64,000 nucleotides of DNA from Gammaproteobacteria bacterium (GTDB lineage: Bacteria; Pseudomonadota; Gammaproteobacteria; SZUA-152), in contig JAOUJW010000020.1 in the NCBI GenBank assembly GCA_029882975.1, positions 1 through 64,000 of the forward strand, in the 5' to 3' direction. Every line of letters begins with the position of its first letter. The first letter of the stretch is position 1. Shown one piece after another: positions 44,752-49,401 of the stretch. Below the pieces are notes generated by a model that was given only the letters and a program-made list of their open reading frames with translations, was not told the DNA's origin and searched no databases. Both the position numbers and the translations under genes were made by a program.

Positions 44752-44787
44752 AAAAAAACAGCGCCGGCAAAGAGACGGGACCGGCGC
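44752..44787 (-). terminator. Rho-independent terminator of the DUF2892 gene
   Basis: Perfect stem GCGCCGG / CCGGCGC with a 13-nt loop (44761-44787). On the minus strand it is followed by a seven-T run, 46 bp after the stop at 44833. On the + strand there is no T-run. Confidence 0.8.
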
Positions 44788-44832
44788 AACCCTCCATTAC
44801 CAAAGGAAAGAAAAATTGACGGAAACGGACAT

Positions 44833-45243
44833 CTATGCCGCTTCCGTGTCGAATTGGGTAATTTGCTGCAGCTCACTCGCCACACCCAACCCCGCACTCG
44901 TTCCCATACCCGCCACAGGGGTTCCTGTGGCAAAAACAAACACGGGTTTTACAGGGGTGGTCGTCCCGGCCTGCGTTACTTTTTCTATAGAAGTAGTTTG
45001 CGGAGCAGCCTCATCATAGGTTGAAATCCCCAGAAAATCGTAAAAAGGGTCCCATGACAACAGGGCTGTGGTATAGAAAAAGATAGACAGTAACGCGAAC
45101 GAGCCGGGATGATCCACATGGGAGTTAACCGTCAAGGTGAGCAATATGAGTGCACAGCAGATCAGCAGACGACTTACCCGGTCGGCATGACTCAGGTTTG
45201 GGCTGGTCTTCATAGGCATCAAAATTTTTACCAAATCAATCAT
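44833..45243 (-). CDS. DUF2892 (YgaP-type) membrane protein
   Basis: A 136-residue protein. Two hydrophobic helices, LLICCALILLTLTV and FALLSIFFYTTALLSW, ending in DPFYDFLGIST, match DUF2892. A low-complexity Thr/Ala/Gly-rich C-terminal tail of about 60 residues follows. An internal ATG at codon 11 (MKTSPNLSHADRVSRLL) gives an N-terminus closer to the family. The gene lies downstream of a predicted sigma-54 promoter with two GlrR-type enhancer sites and a leader of about 200 nt, and ends in a strong terminator. This suggests envelope-stress or GlrK/GlrR control. Confidence 0.78.
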   Translation of the reverse strand: MIDLVKILMPMKTSPNLSHADRVSRLLICCALILLTLTVNSHVDHPGSFALLSIFFYTTALLSWDPFYDFLGISTYDEAAPQTTSIEKVTQAGTTTPVKPVFVFATGTPVAGMGTSAGLGVASELQQITQFDTEAA

Positions 45244-45441
45244 ATTGTTCCCATTGTTTCGTTCTAGGCAGCAAAGCCTGGACTTCCCATCGAATACTCC
45301 ATGTCGTACTGCGTGTGTCCCACGCTCGAAAGAGTTTCAATACACCCTCGTAACCCCAACTCTTTACAACGCAAGCGCGTGAACGGGTGGGAGAGTAGTC
45401 TGGCGTCCCGATAGGAAGTCGCTACTAACCGGCTGCCCTCA
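45244..45441 (-). ncRNA. predicted sigma-54-dependent leader RNA or small RNA
   Basis: About 200 nt lie between the predicted start site near 45441 and the DUF2892 gene, with no open frame. On the minus strand it can form an 8-bp stem AAAGAGTT / AACTCTTT and smaller stems such as AGGC / GCCT near its 3' end. The size and GlrR control recall GlmY of enterobacteria, but I see no sequence resemblance to GlmY. It may simply be a structured 5' UTR. Confidence 0.35.
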
Positions 45442-45451
45442 ATCCCTATAT

Positions 45452-45467
45452 AGCAATCCTTATGCCA
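45452..45467 (-). promoter_or_regulatory. predicted sigma-54 (-24/-12) promoter
   Basis: On the minus strand the sequence reads TGGCAT-AAGGA-TTGCT, matching the TGGCAC-N5-TTGCW consensus with one mismatch and exact GG-to-GC spacing. Transcription would start near 45441 and run towards the DUF2892 gene. Two GlrR-type palindromes lie about 110 and 175 bp upstream, as expected for enhancer sites. Confidence 0.65.
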
Positions 45468-45539
45468 ACTTTATTTTTTGTTAATTATCAATTAGATAGA
45501 GCGATATTTGAGTTGAATAACAGGAAAGATCCGAGGTAA

Positions 45540-45559
45540 CTGTCGCCAGATTGCGACAG
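45540..45559. promoter_or_regulatory. GlrR-type enhancer site 1 (TGTC-N10-GACA)
   Basis: Perfect palindrome CTGTCGC-N6-GCGACAG. It fits TGTC-N10-GACA, the motif bound by GlrR upstream of glmY in enterobacteria. It lies about 108 bp upstream of the predicted start site. Confidence 0.65.
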
Positions 45560-45605
45560 CCATACAAGAAAGCCAGCCAAGCAAATGATTTTATTGAATT
45601 AATTC

Positions 45606-45625
45606 CTGTCGCTGAGGCGCGACAG
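45606..45625. promoter_or_regulatory. GlrR-type enhancer site 2 (TGTC-N10-GACA)
   Basis: Second perfect CTGTCGC-N6-GCGACAG palindrome with a different 6-bp centre. It is 66 bp from the first (centre to centre) and just past the glrR stop codon. Only the arms are conserved between the two sites, which points to protein binding rather than recent duplication. Confidence 0.65.
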
Positions 45626-45632
45626 ATGATAT

Positions 45633-47000
45633 CTACTCATTTTCCATGGTGTCTGTGCGTTTAAAGAAAGCGGGATCGATATTATGGCGATTCAGTAGGC
45701 GATAAAACTCGGTACGATTGCGCTTGGCCAATCGTGCAGCCTGGCTCACTTTACCCGAAGTGATTTGCAGTAACTGACACAAATACTGTCGCTCAAAACG
45801 ACCTCGCGCTTCGGCATAGGACATAATTTCGTGACTGGGATTTTTTAAAGCCCGCTGCACCAACGAAGCAGGAATAATAGGGGTTGTGGTCAAAACGCAC
45901 ACCTGCTCCACCACATTGAGTAACTGCCTTACGTTTCCCGGCCAGGGTGCAGCCACCAGCAGCTCCATTGCTTCGGGGGAAAAAGCGGTGATTTTTTTCT
46001 TGGTTTTACTCACCACATTTTTCAAAAAATGCTGCGCTAACAATGGGATATCTTCCCGACGCATATTGAGAGCCGGCAAATCGATGGCTACAACGTTGAG
46101 TCGATAATACAAATCCTGACGAAATAAACCGTCCTCCATGGCTTTTTCCAAATCCTTATGGGTTGCGGAAATAACTCTTACATCCACTTCCACATCTTCG
46201 CTGCCACCGATGGGACGAACCCGGTTCTCCTGCAATACACGCAATAATTTTGCCTGCAAGGCCAAAGGCATATCGCCTATTTCATCCAGAAGTAAGGTGC
46301 CGCCATGGGCCGATAAAAACAAACCTTTATTATCTTTAATAGCGCCGGTAAAGGAGCCTTTACGATGCCCGAACAACTCTGACTCCAACAAAGCCTCGGG
46401 GATGGCACTGCAGTTTATTGCCACAAAGGGCTGATTGCGCCTCGGACTGGCCTTATGCAACGCATCGGCGATTAATTCTTTACCGGATCCACTGGGACCG
46501 TTAATAAATACACTGATGTTCTCCTGTGCAATCATACGCACTTGGCGCAGTATGTCCTCCATCGCCGGACTGCGGGTAACAATAGCATCGCGCCAGGAAG
46601 TATCACCGTCTTCTTCATCGGGCTTGATCACCGCAGACAGCTGTAAAGCCTTGTCGACTTTTTCAATGAGTTCCTTGCCGTCAAAAGGCTTGGAAAGAAA
46701 ACTAAACACACCCCGGTTAGTAGCTTCCACCGCCTCGGGAATGGTGCCGTGCGCAGTTAATATGATGACAGGCAAGGAAGGATTCATTTCATGGATCACA
46801 TCAAACAACTCCAAGCCGTCCATACCATCCATGCGCAAATCGGTAATCACCACATCGGGACGCACCACTGCCAATTTGGCGATGGCCTTCTCCGCACTCT
46901 CAACCGCATTGACTTCGTAACCGGCCGACTGCATTCTGATGGACATTAACCGCAACAAATCCGGGTCGTCGTCCACTAATAGGGTTTTGCCTCGAATCAC
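45633..47000 (-). CDS. glrR: sigma-54-dependent response regulator GlrR
   Basis: A 455-residue NtrC-family activator: receiver (1-120, Asp in VVITDLRMDGMDG), AAA+ domain (about 140-370) with Walker A NGPSGSGKEL and the sigma-54 contact loop GSFTGA (Ser in place of the usual Ala), and a C-terminal Fis-type helix-turn-helix ending near RNRTEFYRLLNRH. Order and sequence match GlrR (QseF) of the GlrK-QseG-GlrR system, which controls envelope-stress small RNAs in E. coli. Its start overlaps the QseG-like stop (ATGA). Two matching enhancer palindromes and a sigma-54 promoter lie just downstream. Confidence 0.9.
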   Translation of the reverse strand: MIRGKTLLVDDDPDLLRLMSIRMQSAGYEVNAVESAEKAIAKLAVVRPDVVITDLRMDGMDGLELFDVIHEMNPSLPVIILTAHGTIPEAVEATNRGVFSFLSKPFDGKELIEKVDKALQLSAVIKPDEEDGDTSWRDAIVTRSPAMEDILRQVRMIAQENISVFINGPSGSGKELIADALHKASPRRNQPFVAINCSAIPEALLESELFGHRKGSFTGAIKDNKGLFLSAHGGTLLLDEIGDMPLALQAKLLRVLQENRVRPIGGSEDVEVDVRVISATHKDLEKAMEDGLFRQDLYYRLNVVAIDLPALNMRREDIPLLAQHFLKNVVSKTKKKITAFSPEAMELLVAAPWPGNVRQLLNVVEQVCVLTTTPIIPASLVQRALKNPSHEIMSYAEARGRFERQYLCQLLQITSGKVSQAARLAKRNRTEFYRLLNRHNIDPAFFKRTDTMENE

Positions 47001-47632
47001 TGTGCTGCTTCCTCTGGTTGATTTTGGCGTTGACTGATACTCTCCTCAATGGATTTCAAAGCCTCGAGTTTTTGTTCCAATTGCAACCTGAGCTGCTGTT
47101 CGTGACGCAATTTACGTCGTAAGTTGGTGGACTCCAGCTGGAATTTGGCTTTCTTGTCAATATCTTCCAGTAACACAAAAGCATATTCCCGCAGCGTTGG
47201 AGCATGTTCTTCACTCTCTTCGATAAATTCAATAAGAATGTTTTTGGCTTTCCTGGCGTCATGAAAATGTGCCGTGGGTAAACTCAAGAGCATGGCGAGT
47301 TTAAAGCGGCTGCGCACCGTAGGCTCGCTGACATTGAGTCCACTGATTTTTTCATGCTCCCGGGTTATTTCCGGCTTGGTCAACTCGGCAATAAAGCGCG
47401 AATAACGCATCAAGGTTAACAGGGTTTCTTCATCCGAAGGATTGACGACCGCCATACTGCTTTTGGCTTCTTCCCGCGCCAATCGTTCACTTTCCTTTAG
47501 TTGCTGTTCATATGAAAACTCAGCCACTGGAGCCGGTCGCTCCAACATGGATTGATTGAGCACCTCGCAAGCAGCTAGAAATATAACGACAGTAACACTT
47601 ATAATTATTTTCAAATACATATACAACGTCAT
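46997..47632 (-). CDS. qseG: QseG-like lipoprotein
   Basis: A 211-residue lipoprotein with signal sequence and lipobox VIFLAACEV (lipidated Cys near 22). A tetratricopeptide-like helical region follows, then a long C-terminal coiled coil (about 160-205, RRKLRHEQQLRLQLEQKLEAL). It sits between glrK and glrR with ATGA overlaps on both sides, the position of QseG, an outer-membrane lipoprotein that activates the GlrK (QseE) kinase. Sequence identity to E. coli QseG cannot be judged here; the assignment rests on position and architecture. Confidence 0.78.
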   Translation of the reverse strand: MTLYMYLKIIISVTVVIFLAACEVLNQSMLERPAPVAEFSYEQQLKESERLAREEAKSSMAVVNPSDEETLLTLMRYSRFIAELTKPEITREHEKISGLNVSEPTVRSRFKLAMLLSLPTAHFHDARKAKNILIEFIEESEEHAPTLREYAFVLLEDIDKKAKFQLESTNLRRKLRHEQQLRLQLEQKLEALKSIEESISQRQNQPEEAAQ

Positions 47633-49092
47633 GCAGCCCCCTGAGCCACGTCCAACGGCAATCGCAAGGATACATGCGCTCCCTTTATATTCTTCTCATT
47701 GACAGCGATCTGACCACCGTGCGCTTGCACATAGTCCCTGGCAATTGACAGTCCCAATCCCGTTCCCTTGATGTGCCCTTCAGCAACCGATTCACCTTGG
47801 TAGAACGCCTCAAAAACCCGCTCTTTTTCCCAGGAATGAATCCCCGGCCCGGCATCGCGAATGTCTACCGCCACGCTGTTTTCCAATTTTCTCACCGCAA
47901 TCTCAACTTTTCCTTGTCGAGGAGAAAATTTTACGGCATTTGAAAGCAGGTTATCAAACACCACTCGCAATTTTTCTTTGTCACCGCGGATAGAAACCGG
48001 GTCAAATCGTACATTTAACCGCAGTTGCTTCGACATTATGGCTAATTTCTGATCGGCTATCACCCGACGCATGAGTTTGTCCAAAGGCACTCTATCCTGG
48101 TGTAAATCCGGTTTTTTCAGATGCGCCACGCTAAAATTCAGTAGATCTTCAATTAAATGCTGCAATTGTGCCGTATTAGAACCTAAAATTTGCACCACCT
48201 CCTTTTGTTGCGGTTTCAACTGACCCACCAACCCATCCGCCAATAAATCCGTACCTTCACGCAAAGCGGTTAAAGGCGTTTTCAACTCGTGCGACACATG
48301 GCGCAAAAACTTCACTTTCTCTTCTTCCACCTCTGCCAAACGTTGGCGTAACCAGTTTAAACGCTCTCCCAAAGACTCCAAATCTTGCGGTCCCGCCACC
48401 TGGATGGGGGTAGAAAGTTCCCCATCGCCGAGCTTGCGTATGGCCTGGTCAATTTGTGCAATCGGCCGAGAAATCAAAATGGTAAACCCCAGCACAATCA
48501 GCACCACAGCCGGAATCACTGTTAAGCCAAACCAGAAAATGAGTTTTTGGGCTTTACCTGCCAAATCGTACATCTCTTGCACTTCCCTATCGATGACGGT
48601 TTGACTGCCGTTCAATATTTCCCGTGATCCCGAAGCCAGTTGCTCAAACCCGGCAATTTCCGCCTTGCTCTTTTCACTGTTGTAGGGATTGTTTTCCATC
48701 ACCCGCAGAATTCGCGACTCTATACTGTTTAACTGCGTCAGTTGAAATCGAACTGTTTCCTCCAAGGGAAACGTTAACAAAGTGGCCACCGTCTGCTGAA
48801 ATTTGTCATGCGCTTCTCGATACGCCTTAAACAATGCCACATCCCCCAGCACTTGATATTGCCGGGCCGCGCGTTCCATAACCGTTACCTGCTCCACTAA
48901 CATACGGCTACTTTGAGTCGCAACAGCGGCTTGATACACTGCCCGCTGACTTTGATCCGCCATCTGGTCCGCATACCAGGCGGCCAGACCCAATGCCACC
49001 AACAGGGGTAACACCACAAAGGCAAAACCGAGCAGAATCAGTTTTAGAAACGACTTTGGGCGGGGTAGACTAAAATTTAACTTGCGGTTCAT
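47629..49092 (-). CDS. glrK: sensor histidine kinase GlrK
   Basis: A 487-residue inner-membrane kinase. Two membrane helices (about 15-35 and 180-200) flank a helical periplasmic domain. A HAMP segment (SRPIAQIDQAIRKL) is followed by HisKA (FLRHVSHELKTPLTAL) and HATPase (LLSNAVKFSP, DAGPGI, GTGLGLSIARDYV). The ATG at 49092 (MNRKLNF) is chosen because the upstream 25 codons look non-coding. The gene starts the tightly overlapping operon glrK-qseG-glrR. Confidence 0.9.
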   Translation of the reverse strand: MNRKLNFSLPRPKSFLKLILLGFAFVVLPLLVALGLAAWYADQMADQSQRAVYQAAVATQSSRMLVEQVTVMERAARQYQVLGDVALFKAYREAHDKFQQTVATLLTFPLEETVRFQLTQLNSIESRILRVMENNPYNSEKSKAEIAGFEQLASGSREILNGSQTVIDREVQEMYDLAGKAQKLIFWFGLTVIPAVVLIVLGFTILISRPIAQIDQAIRKLGDGELSTPIQVAGPQDLESLGERLNWLRQRLAEVEEEKVKFLRHVSHELKTPLTALREGTDLLADGLVGQLKPQQKEVVQILGSNTAQLQHLIEDLLNFSVAHLKKPDLHQDRVPLDKLMRRVIADQKLAIMSKQLRLNVRFDPVSIRGDKEKLRVVFDNLLSNAVKFSPRQGKVEIAVRKLENSVAVDIRDAGPGIHSWEKERVFEAFYQGESVAEGHIKGTGLGLSIARDYVQAHGGQIAVNEKNIKGAHVSLRLPLDVAQGAA

Positions 49093-49401
49093 AGGCTCAA
49101 ACCAGAAAATTAGCAGTGTCTCTCCACTGATTGGCGCTGACAGCGAGCGGTTGGGAATGTACATCACACTCTGTTTTTAACCCACCTATTCTACCGTGTC
49201 TCCCTACTAATTAACCACTATACTTTAATTTTTAATATCAATCACTTAACTTTCAAGCTCGAAACTCGTTCGAAATACGGCCCAGAAAAACCGACTCCAT
49301 CTTGAGGAAAAAAGTCCAGTGGATGCGAATAACCCACCTGGATTAAACAAGGTGTCCCTTTATTATTATACAATTAAACTTTTCAGGACGTACTGAAACC
49401 C
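49093..49401. other. 309-bp divergent intergenic region between glrK and the ABC genes
   Basis: AT-rich, with no open frame, no clear terminator and only a weak imperfect inverted repeat around the CCAGTGG / CCACCTGG segment at 49317-49345. It should contain divergent promoters for glrK and the exporter operon. I cannot identify them firmly and see no TGTC-N10-GACA site here. Confidence 0.5.

Follow-up and report, generated by a model that had tools for sequence, protein, structure and literature searches.

A transcription unit directly behind glrR in a gammaproteobacterial genome is very probably a GlrR-dependent sigma-54 unit of the GlrK/GlrR operon, which encodes a cell-envelope sensor; its product is most likely an RNA to which the gene of a DUF2892 membrane protein was added later. 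The unit lies in the window, the whole analysed stretch of 64,000 nucleotides. Its assignment to GlrR is a conclusion from sequence comparison, drawn from the orthology of the regulator, the adjoining genes and the identity of the sites.

Architecture of the locus and comparison with E. coli glmY

On the minus strand the order of elements is glrK, a lipoprotein gene, glrR, two palindromes, a predicted sigma-54 promoter, a 136-aa ORF and a terminator.

47629-49167, minus strand: glrK, sensor histidine kinase (32% identity to E. coli QseE/GlrK)
46997-47632, minus strand: lipoprotein gene in the qseG position (assigned by position and lipobox)
45633-47000, minus strand: glrR, NtrC-family response regulator, ortholog of E. 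coli GlrR/QseF (56% identity)
45606-45625, minus strand: distal putative GlrR upstream activating sequence, perfect palindrome CTGTCGC-N6-GCGACAG (0 mismatches)
45540-45559, minus strand: proximal putative GlrR upstream activating sequence, same palindrome (0 mismatches), 66 bp from the distal one
45452-45467, minus strand: predicted sigma-54 promoter TGGCATAAGGATTGCT, expected transcription start near 45440
45267-45438, minus strand: predicted folded 5' domain of the transcript with a GGCAGC/GCTGCC closing stem (predicted fold)
44833-45243, minus strand: gene of a 136-aa YgaP-like transmembrane protein (PF11127, DUF2892; by Pfam)
44790-44810, minus strand: conserved hairpin CTTTCC...GGAGGG directly before the terminator (four-genome alignment)
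44752-44787, minus strand: intrinsic terminator GCGCCGG-T-CCCGTC-loop-CCGGCGC with T run (GCGCCGGTCCCGTCTCTTTGCCGGCGC), its sequence kept in three genera

A preliminary description of this DNA had recognized two perfect palindromes behind glrR, a sigma-54 promoter downstream of them, a strong hairpin about 690 nt further on as the end of the transcript, and the regulator gene next door. Each of these was recovered: both palindromes are exact, the promoter lies 90 bp past the second one, the predicted transcript from promoter to terminator is 689 nt long, and glrR adjoins the unit.

Among the NCBI models, the window GlrR scores best with that of GlrR (619 bits, below the cut-off of 763 of this model), and its helix-turn-helix is nearly identical to that of E. 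coli GlrR (RNRTEFYRLLNRH vs RNRTEFYKLLSRH). Forty-two matches to GlrR were scored in the window genome (G000), a single one of which passes E 1e-140. The genome also encodes rpoN (sigma-54 DNA-binding domain at E 9e-70). The middle gene of the operon had been named qseG, which its position and the lipobox of its 211-aa product bear out, but sequence does not: no similarity to E. coli QseG was detectable (best alignment 23 residues, E 0.27). Where found, its nearest relatives share 27-40% identity with it and, judged by its sequence, it is a fast-changing accessory lipoprotein.

The consensus of GlrR/QseF sites is given as TGTC-N10-GACA (TGT-N12-ACA) in PMC8745638 and PMC6075780 (parts of both texts). 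Both window sites have the TGTC-N10-GACA form exactly, and the promoter has the form GG-N10-GC at enhancer distance. As a positive control, the same scan of E. coli found palindromes TGTCGCTTTCTGGCGACA and TGTCTCTTTTTAGCGACA 63 bp apart, a sigma-54 promoter TTGGCACAGTTACTGCA 169 bp after the first and 106 bp after the second palindrome and, following the promoter, the Rfam GlmY family (146 bits, 148 nt matched). One of the E. coli palindromes has six-base arms, TGTCGC/GCGACA, identical to those of the window. The window unit is therefore built like the glmY promoter. The likeness to the glmY-qseE-qseG-glrR locus of Enterobacteriaceae extends to the orthologous regulator, the tandem sites (63-66 bp apart), the position of the sigma-54 promoter (90-106 bp past the second site) and, probably, the RNA nature of the product in the lineage of the window. 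The loci differ in that the glmY unit stands in front of glrK whereas that of the window stands behind glrR, in that two sites were detected in the window vs three reported at E. coli glmY (PMC6075780, part of the text), and in the RNA itself, which in the window is longer than GlmY, lacks a GlmY/GlmZ match and, in G000, carries the YgaP-like gene.

Genome-wide, the palindrome pattern with up to 2 mismatches is not above the control (149 vs 220), and therefore it is the exact pair and its geometry that constitute the palindrome evidence. The sigma-54 promoter match, taken alone, is not significant (48 sites vs 47 expected, up to 2 mismatches). The exact 12-base core TGTCGC-N6-GCGACA occurs at three sites of the 5.18-Mb genome, i.e. 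the window pair and C12:64766, and with up to 3 mismatches allowed the window holds one further match of the full pattern, with 3 mismatches. The combination of palindrome and promoter is the sole one in the window, while the reversed window yielded one weak single-palindrome match. Across the whole of G000, a palindrome followed at 50-80 bp by TGGY-N8-TGC was found twice (control: 0), in the window unit and at a tandem pair on contig C1.

The C1 pair (L001 2377-2905) has its nearest promoter facing the gene of a 321-aa protein, which is divergent from a gene for a 4Fe-4S/pyridine-nucleotide oxidoreductase. A genome of a different family (L037 of G226) likewise has a tandem of GlrR-type palindromes flanked by divergent genes, and one of these genes encodes such an oxidoreductase; on sequence grounds this locus is a candidate conserved regulon member. 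A further palindrome unit at C12:64766 (L002 3267), whose second site is degenerate and which has TGGTGCGAATCCTGCT (by eye), precedes the gene of a secreted Calx-beta/Ig-domain protein beside exopolysaccharide-type genes.

Conservation and product of the unit in the family

GlrR orthologs (at least 57% identity) were found in 17 of 24 genomes, including a truncated one in G003. With G021 left out (its contig ends too early), 16 same-family genomes were testable, and the check that had been proposed, a search for the unit in related genomes, found it beside glrK/glrR in every one of them. In four of them (G000, G001, G002 and G004) the unit follows glrR, and in the other 12 it precedes glrK. 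The geometry is constant: the first palindrome and the promoter are 155-160 bp apart in all 16 units, and the spacing of the tandem repeat (65-67 bp) and the palindrome arms are likewise kept in 16/16. Where arms have changed in the relatives, they have often changed symmetrically (e.g. TGTCTC/GAGACA). Assignment of the motif to GlrR, as put forward in the preliminary description, is thus favoured by comparative genomics, and E. coli glmY shares both the layout and the six-base arms.

The genome holds many GlrR paralogs and the third unit, at C12:64766, adjoins an apparent exosortase/exopolysaccharide cluster, which would fit binding of the palindromes by an NtrC-family activator other than GlrR, e.g. 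the PrsR of the PEP-CTERM system. PrsK/PrsR PEP-CTERM promoters share with the window unit an NtrC-type activator site, a sigma-54 promoter and a long non-coding region; however, according to the same source (PMC1569441, part of the text), their activator motif, which stands before the sigma-54 site, comprises 17 nt ending in TTTACA. This 17-nt motif was not found at the window unit, where the activator site is TGTC-N10-GACA beside glrR. In addition, each of the 16 testable genomes of the family has the palindromes next to glrK/glrR, and the palindromes agree with the GlrR/QseF sites of E. coli. We consider a different activator quite improbable, though another NtrC-family regulator may share the palindromes despite the conservation of the GlrR ortholog.

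The 136-aa ORF, as had been noted earlier, encodes a DUF2892 protein (30.1 bits against PF11127, cut-off 25.3; residues 15-76 aligned); we take DUF2892 to be the former name of the Pfam family PF11127 YgaP-like_TM. The gene is present in the target unit but was probably not its original payload, being absent from the units of a same-genus relative (G001) and of two sister genera (G002 and G004), so that G000 is its only in-unit occurrence. Weak relatives of the gene exist elsewhere in the family. The DUF2892-like loci of G002 carry no palindrome-promoter unit and therefore do not speak for DUF2892 as a target of GlrR in general.

The predicted transcripts of G001, G002 and G004 measure 343, 342 and 370 nt, respectively, that of the window being longer because it contains the YgaP-like gene. 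No convincing ORF was found in these three units, the longest (about 58 aa, in G001) being unshared. A short ORF over the terminator, seen in all four genomes with the unit behind glrR, was dropped, as its translation would require terminator read-through. The three units are strongly structured by prediction (folding z of -5.0, -4.4 and -3.4 for G001, G002 and G004, respectively), while the window leader is weakly (z -1.6) and the whole window transcript moderately (z -2.5) structured. The terminator with the CCCGTC loop occurs in four of the 24 same-order genomes, precisely those whose unit follows glrR. The pre-terminator hairpin is common to these four, as is a CAGCC motif close to the 5' end. 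The comparison involves four sequences, which align well jointly at the 3' end only. A common fold of G002 and G004 has 37 pairs unchanged, 12 changed on one side, 9 changed on both sides and 0 broken, the pair changes having been counted on the same two sequences from which the fold was derived. A scan of 84,980 genomes with the terminator pattern returned at least 118 stretches, mostly GC-rich background; among the matches listed, the gene context of the window appeared in two, on contigs of G001 and G004.

Because DUF2892 is missing from the three other units and the 3' end is conserved, the RNA is read as the product of the lineage; on balance, with clear if not overwhelming preference, we favour this reading with DUF2892 as the addition. 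It is most likely that the shared product, as far as sequence can tell, is a GlrR-controlled regulatory RNA. The unit might also be no more than a GlrR-regulated mRNA of the DUF2892 protein, with an untranslated leader and no role for the RNA itself. The ORF is a genuine member of its family and occupies most of the transcript, the leader in the window is weakly structured, as given above, and elsewhere the payload, where it could be identified, is a protein in most genomes. Such an mRNA is nevertheless less in keeping with units of the same genus and two sister genera that lack the gene, and in which the terminator and the hairpin preceding it are kept at sequence level, and we hold this explanation to be tenable but doubtful.

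At gathering score, Rfam gave no GlmY/GlmZ match in the window or in the relatives' loci (L004-L006), nor did the window unit match GlmY/GlmZ at a relaxed E-value; weak matches of the unit to other families (e.g. Spot 42, 20 bits vs a cut-off of 80) were taken as chance. The lineage RNA is therefore set beside GlmY as most likely analogous in control, and not as its homolog, in so far as sequence comparison can decide. That it would be a true but highly diverged GlmY/GlmZ, acting as a RapZ decoy that raises glmS expression, could be argued from the common regulator, the common promoter layout, the predicted strong structure of the sister RNAs and the occurrence of RapZ (PF03668) in 5/5 genomes tested. 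RapZ is a widespread family, so that its presence is weak evidence for a GlmY-like role. Given the Rfam results, the length (342-690 nt vs 148 nt matched in E. coli) and the position of the unit at the opposite end of the operon, this homology appears unlikely. A GlmY-like RapZ decoy role of the RNA is possible, RapZ being present but a sequence or structure match lacking.

Units and payloads in other families

Among 369 genomes of the class, 13 carry the strict tandem motif (control pattern: 0), two of them in the window's own family (G000 and G003). Ten of the 11 outside the family have a GlrR ortholog; the exception, G295, shows a different direct repeat. With the threshold E 1e-140, GlrR orthologs were found in 84/369 class genomes, and 84 glrR loci outside the family (L203-L286) were analysed. 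Thirty-six of these loci contain 43 units (17 tandem), the reversed sequence giving 1 unit. Within 1.2 kb behind glrR, 34/84 loci have a unit (19 tandem), whereas the reversed control gave 1 unit (0 tandem) and the opposite strand 2; in the other 50 loci this 1.2-kb scan found none. A unit behind glrR is common and recurrent, far from universal. The position of the target behind glrR, which had been described as a departure from E. coli, is thus correct for the window but no peculiarity of it, as 34/84 outside-family loci share it.

These counts bear on a further explanation, namely that the palindromes serve the glrR mRNA as terminators or repeat hairpins, the promoter being a chance match. 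The first palindrome does start a few bases past the stop codon of glrR, a 7-bp hairpin could form from it, and the promoter alone is, as stated, not significant. Yet a T run is absent after the palindrome, the tandem stands in front of glrK in 12 relatives at equal distance to the promoter, and the 19 tandem units behind glrR face 0 in the reversed control; this explanation is scarcely credible.

Of the 41 tandem rows, five duplicate palindromes of other rows as read from the opposite strand; with these included, 31/41 rows have their palindromes 66 or 67 bp apart, and 17/41 (pooled) have IHF-like sites between them, vs a shuffled mean of 1.9 (maximum 7). Among 77 exact sites close to strong promoters, 58 have complementary bases at positions 5/14, vs 43.0 expected (11 are T/A), on account of which the palindrome arms are seen to change in a compensated way. 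No such excess was found at positions 6/13 of the same 77 sites (53 vs 52.4 expected).

In the family of the window, the unit in front of glrK precedes the ORF of a small secreted EF-hand protein in 10/12 genomes; the same scan did not find this ORF in the units of G012 and G013. Outside the family an EF-hand ORF is found near glrR in 26/84 loci, 23 of which have a promoter score of at least 13 before the ORF and 16 also a palindrome, and the reversed-sequence control contained no EF-hand ORF. The EF-hand protein is the commonest payload of the unit, whether behind glrR or in front of glrK (L203-L286 and L056-L067). We found no paper that pairs an EF-hand protein with QseF or GlrR in a literature search whose coverage mostly excludes subscription journals.

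Automatic classification of the 34 units behind glrR gave 12 EF-hand, 8 RNA-like and 14 other payloads. Hand correction removed L226 from the RNA-like class (it encodes a 26-aa membrane peptide) and moved L225, L235, L237, L240 and L271 into the EF-hand class, which resulted in 17 EF-hand and 7 RNA-like units. The latter (L207, L217, L229, L239, L242, L249 and L259) lie directly behind glrR and are followed by ybgC. They have a strong terminator within about 330 nt of the promoter and no gene with a plausible ribosome-binding site before it. Rfam at gathering score found no match for these seven loci, and no GlmY/GlmZ on 11 distant loci.

In the RNA-like units the terminator is often preceded by stretches rich in C (CCCCCTCC and similar). 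Between L229 and L239 a stem is apparently kept by compensatory change (GGACTCA/TGAGTCC vs GGGCCCA/TGAGCCC, by eye). L226 and L230, from two genera of one family, encode a 25-26-aa membrane peptide behind glrR (MKSVVGFLIFGVALFYAATYASLLG / MKAIVGTLIIGVSMFYFASYMSIIG). A putative unit drives an acyltransferase-like gene (LRYQVYC.EKGYED) behind glrR in L212 and L216 and in front of the operon in L206; by its look, we take this gene to be of the exosortase-associated type.

Proposed mechanism and significance

We propose that, in response to a signal, GlrK would phosphorylate GlrR, which would then bind the two palindromes. The DNA in between would be bent, probably by IHF, and the looped GlrR would open the sigma-54 polymerase at 45467-45452. 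One RNA of about 690 nt would be made, with its 3' end at 44752, consisting of a 5' region with a predicted fold, the YgaP-like gene and a 3' end that is conserved in genera without the protein gene. From glrR to the start of the unit, inspection by eye revealed no hairpin followed by a T run, and a co-transcript of glrR and the unit is therefore possible.

A co-transcript of a regulator gene and an sRNA has been described for cbrB-crcZ of Pseudomonas/Azotobacter, where a sigma-54 response regulator likewise has an sRNA adjoining its gene and the RNA is made from a sigma-54 promoter (PMC6292655, part of the text). The two systems differ in their regulator and in their RNA: CrcZ antagonises Hfq-Crc repression (same part of PMC6292655), while the window RNA is without a match to any Rfam family.

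Taken across families, the unit may be a portable GlrR sigma-54 cassette, the control part of which is fixed while the payload is exchanged in evolution, GlmY being one independent payload; we rate the chances of this broader proposal as about even. The payloads of such a cassette would be GlmY in Enterobacteriaceae, the secreted EF-hand protein in many gammaproteobacteria besides these, sRNAs unrelated to GlmY in several further families and, in the lineage of the window, a new family of long structured RNA to which a membrane-protein gene was added in one species.

The literature consulted deals with GlrK/GlrR mostly as an enterobacterial system that targets GlmY and rpoE, and the stimulus in E. 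coli K-12 is given as unknown (PMC6075780, part of the text). The present comparison puts the GlrR promoter architecture outside the enterobacteria. If the cassette proposal is true, an older envelope circuit would have several independent RNA payloads, GlmY among them, and the unit would provide a case of a fixed regulatory cassette whose product switches between RNA and protein. The candidate payloads, above all the secreted EF-hand protein, could reveal what GlrK/GlrR senses or controls.
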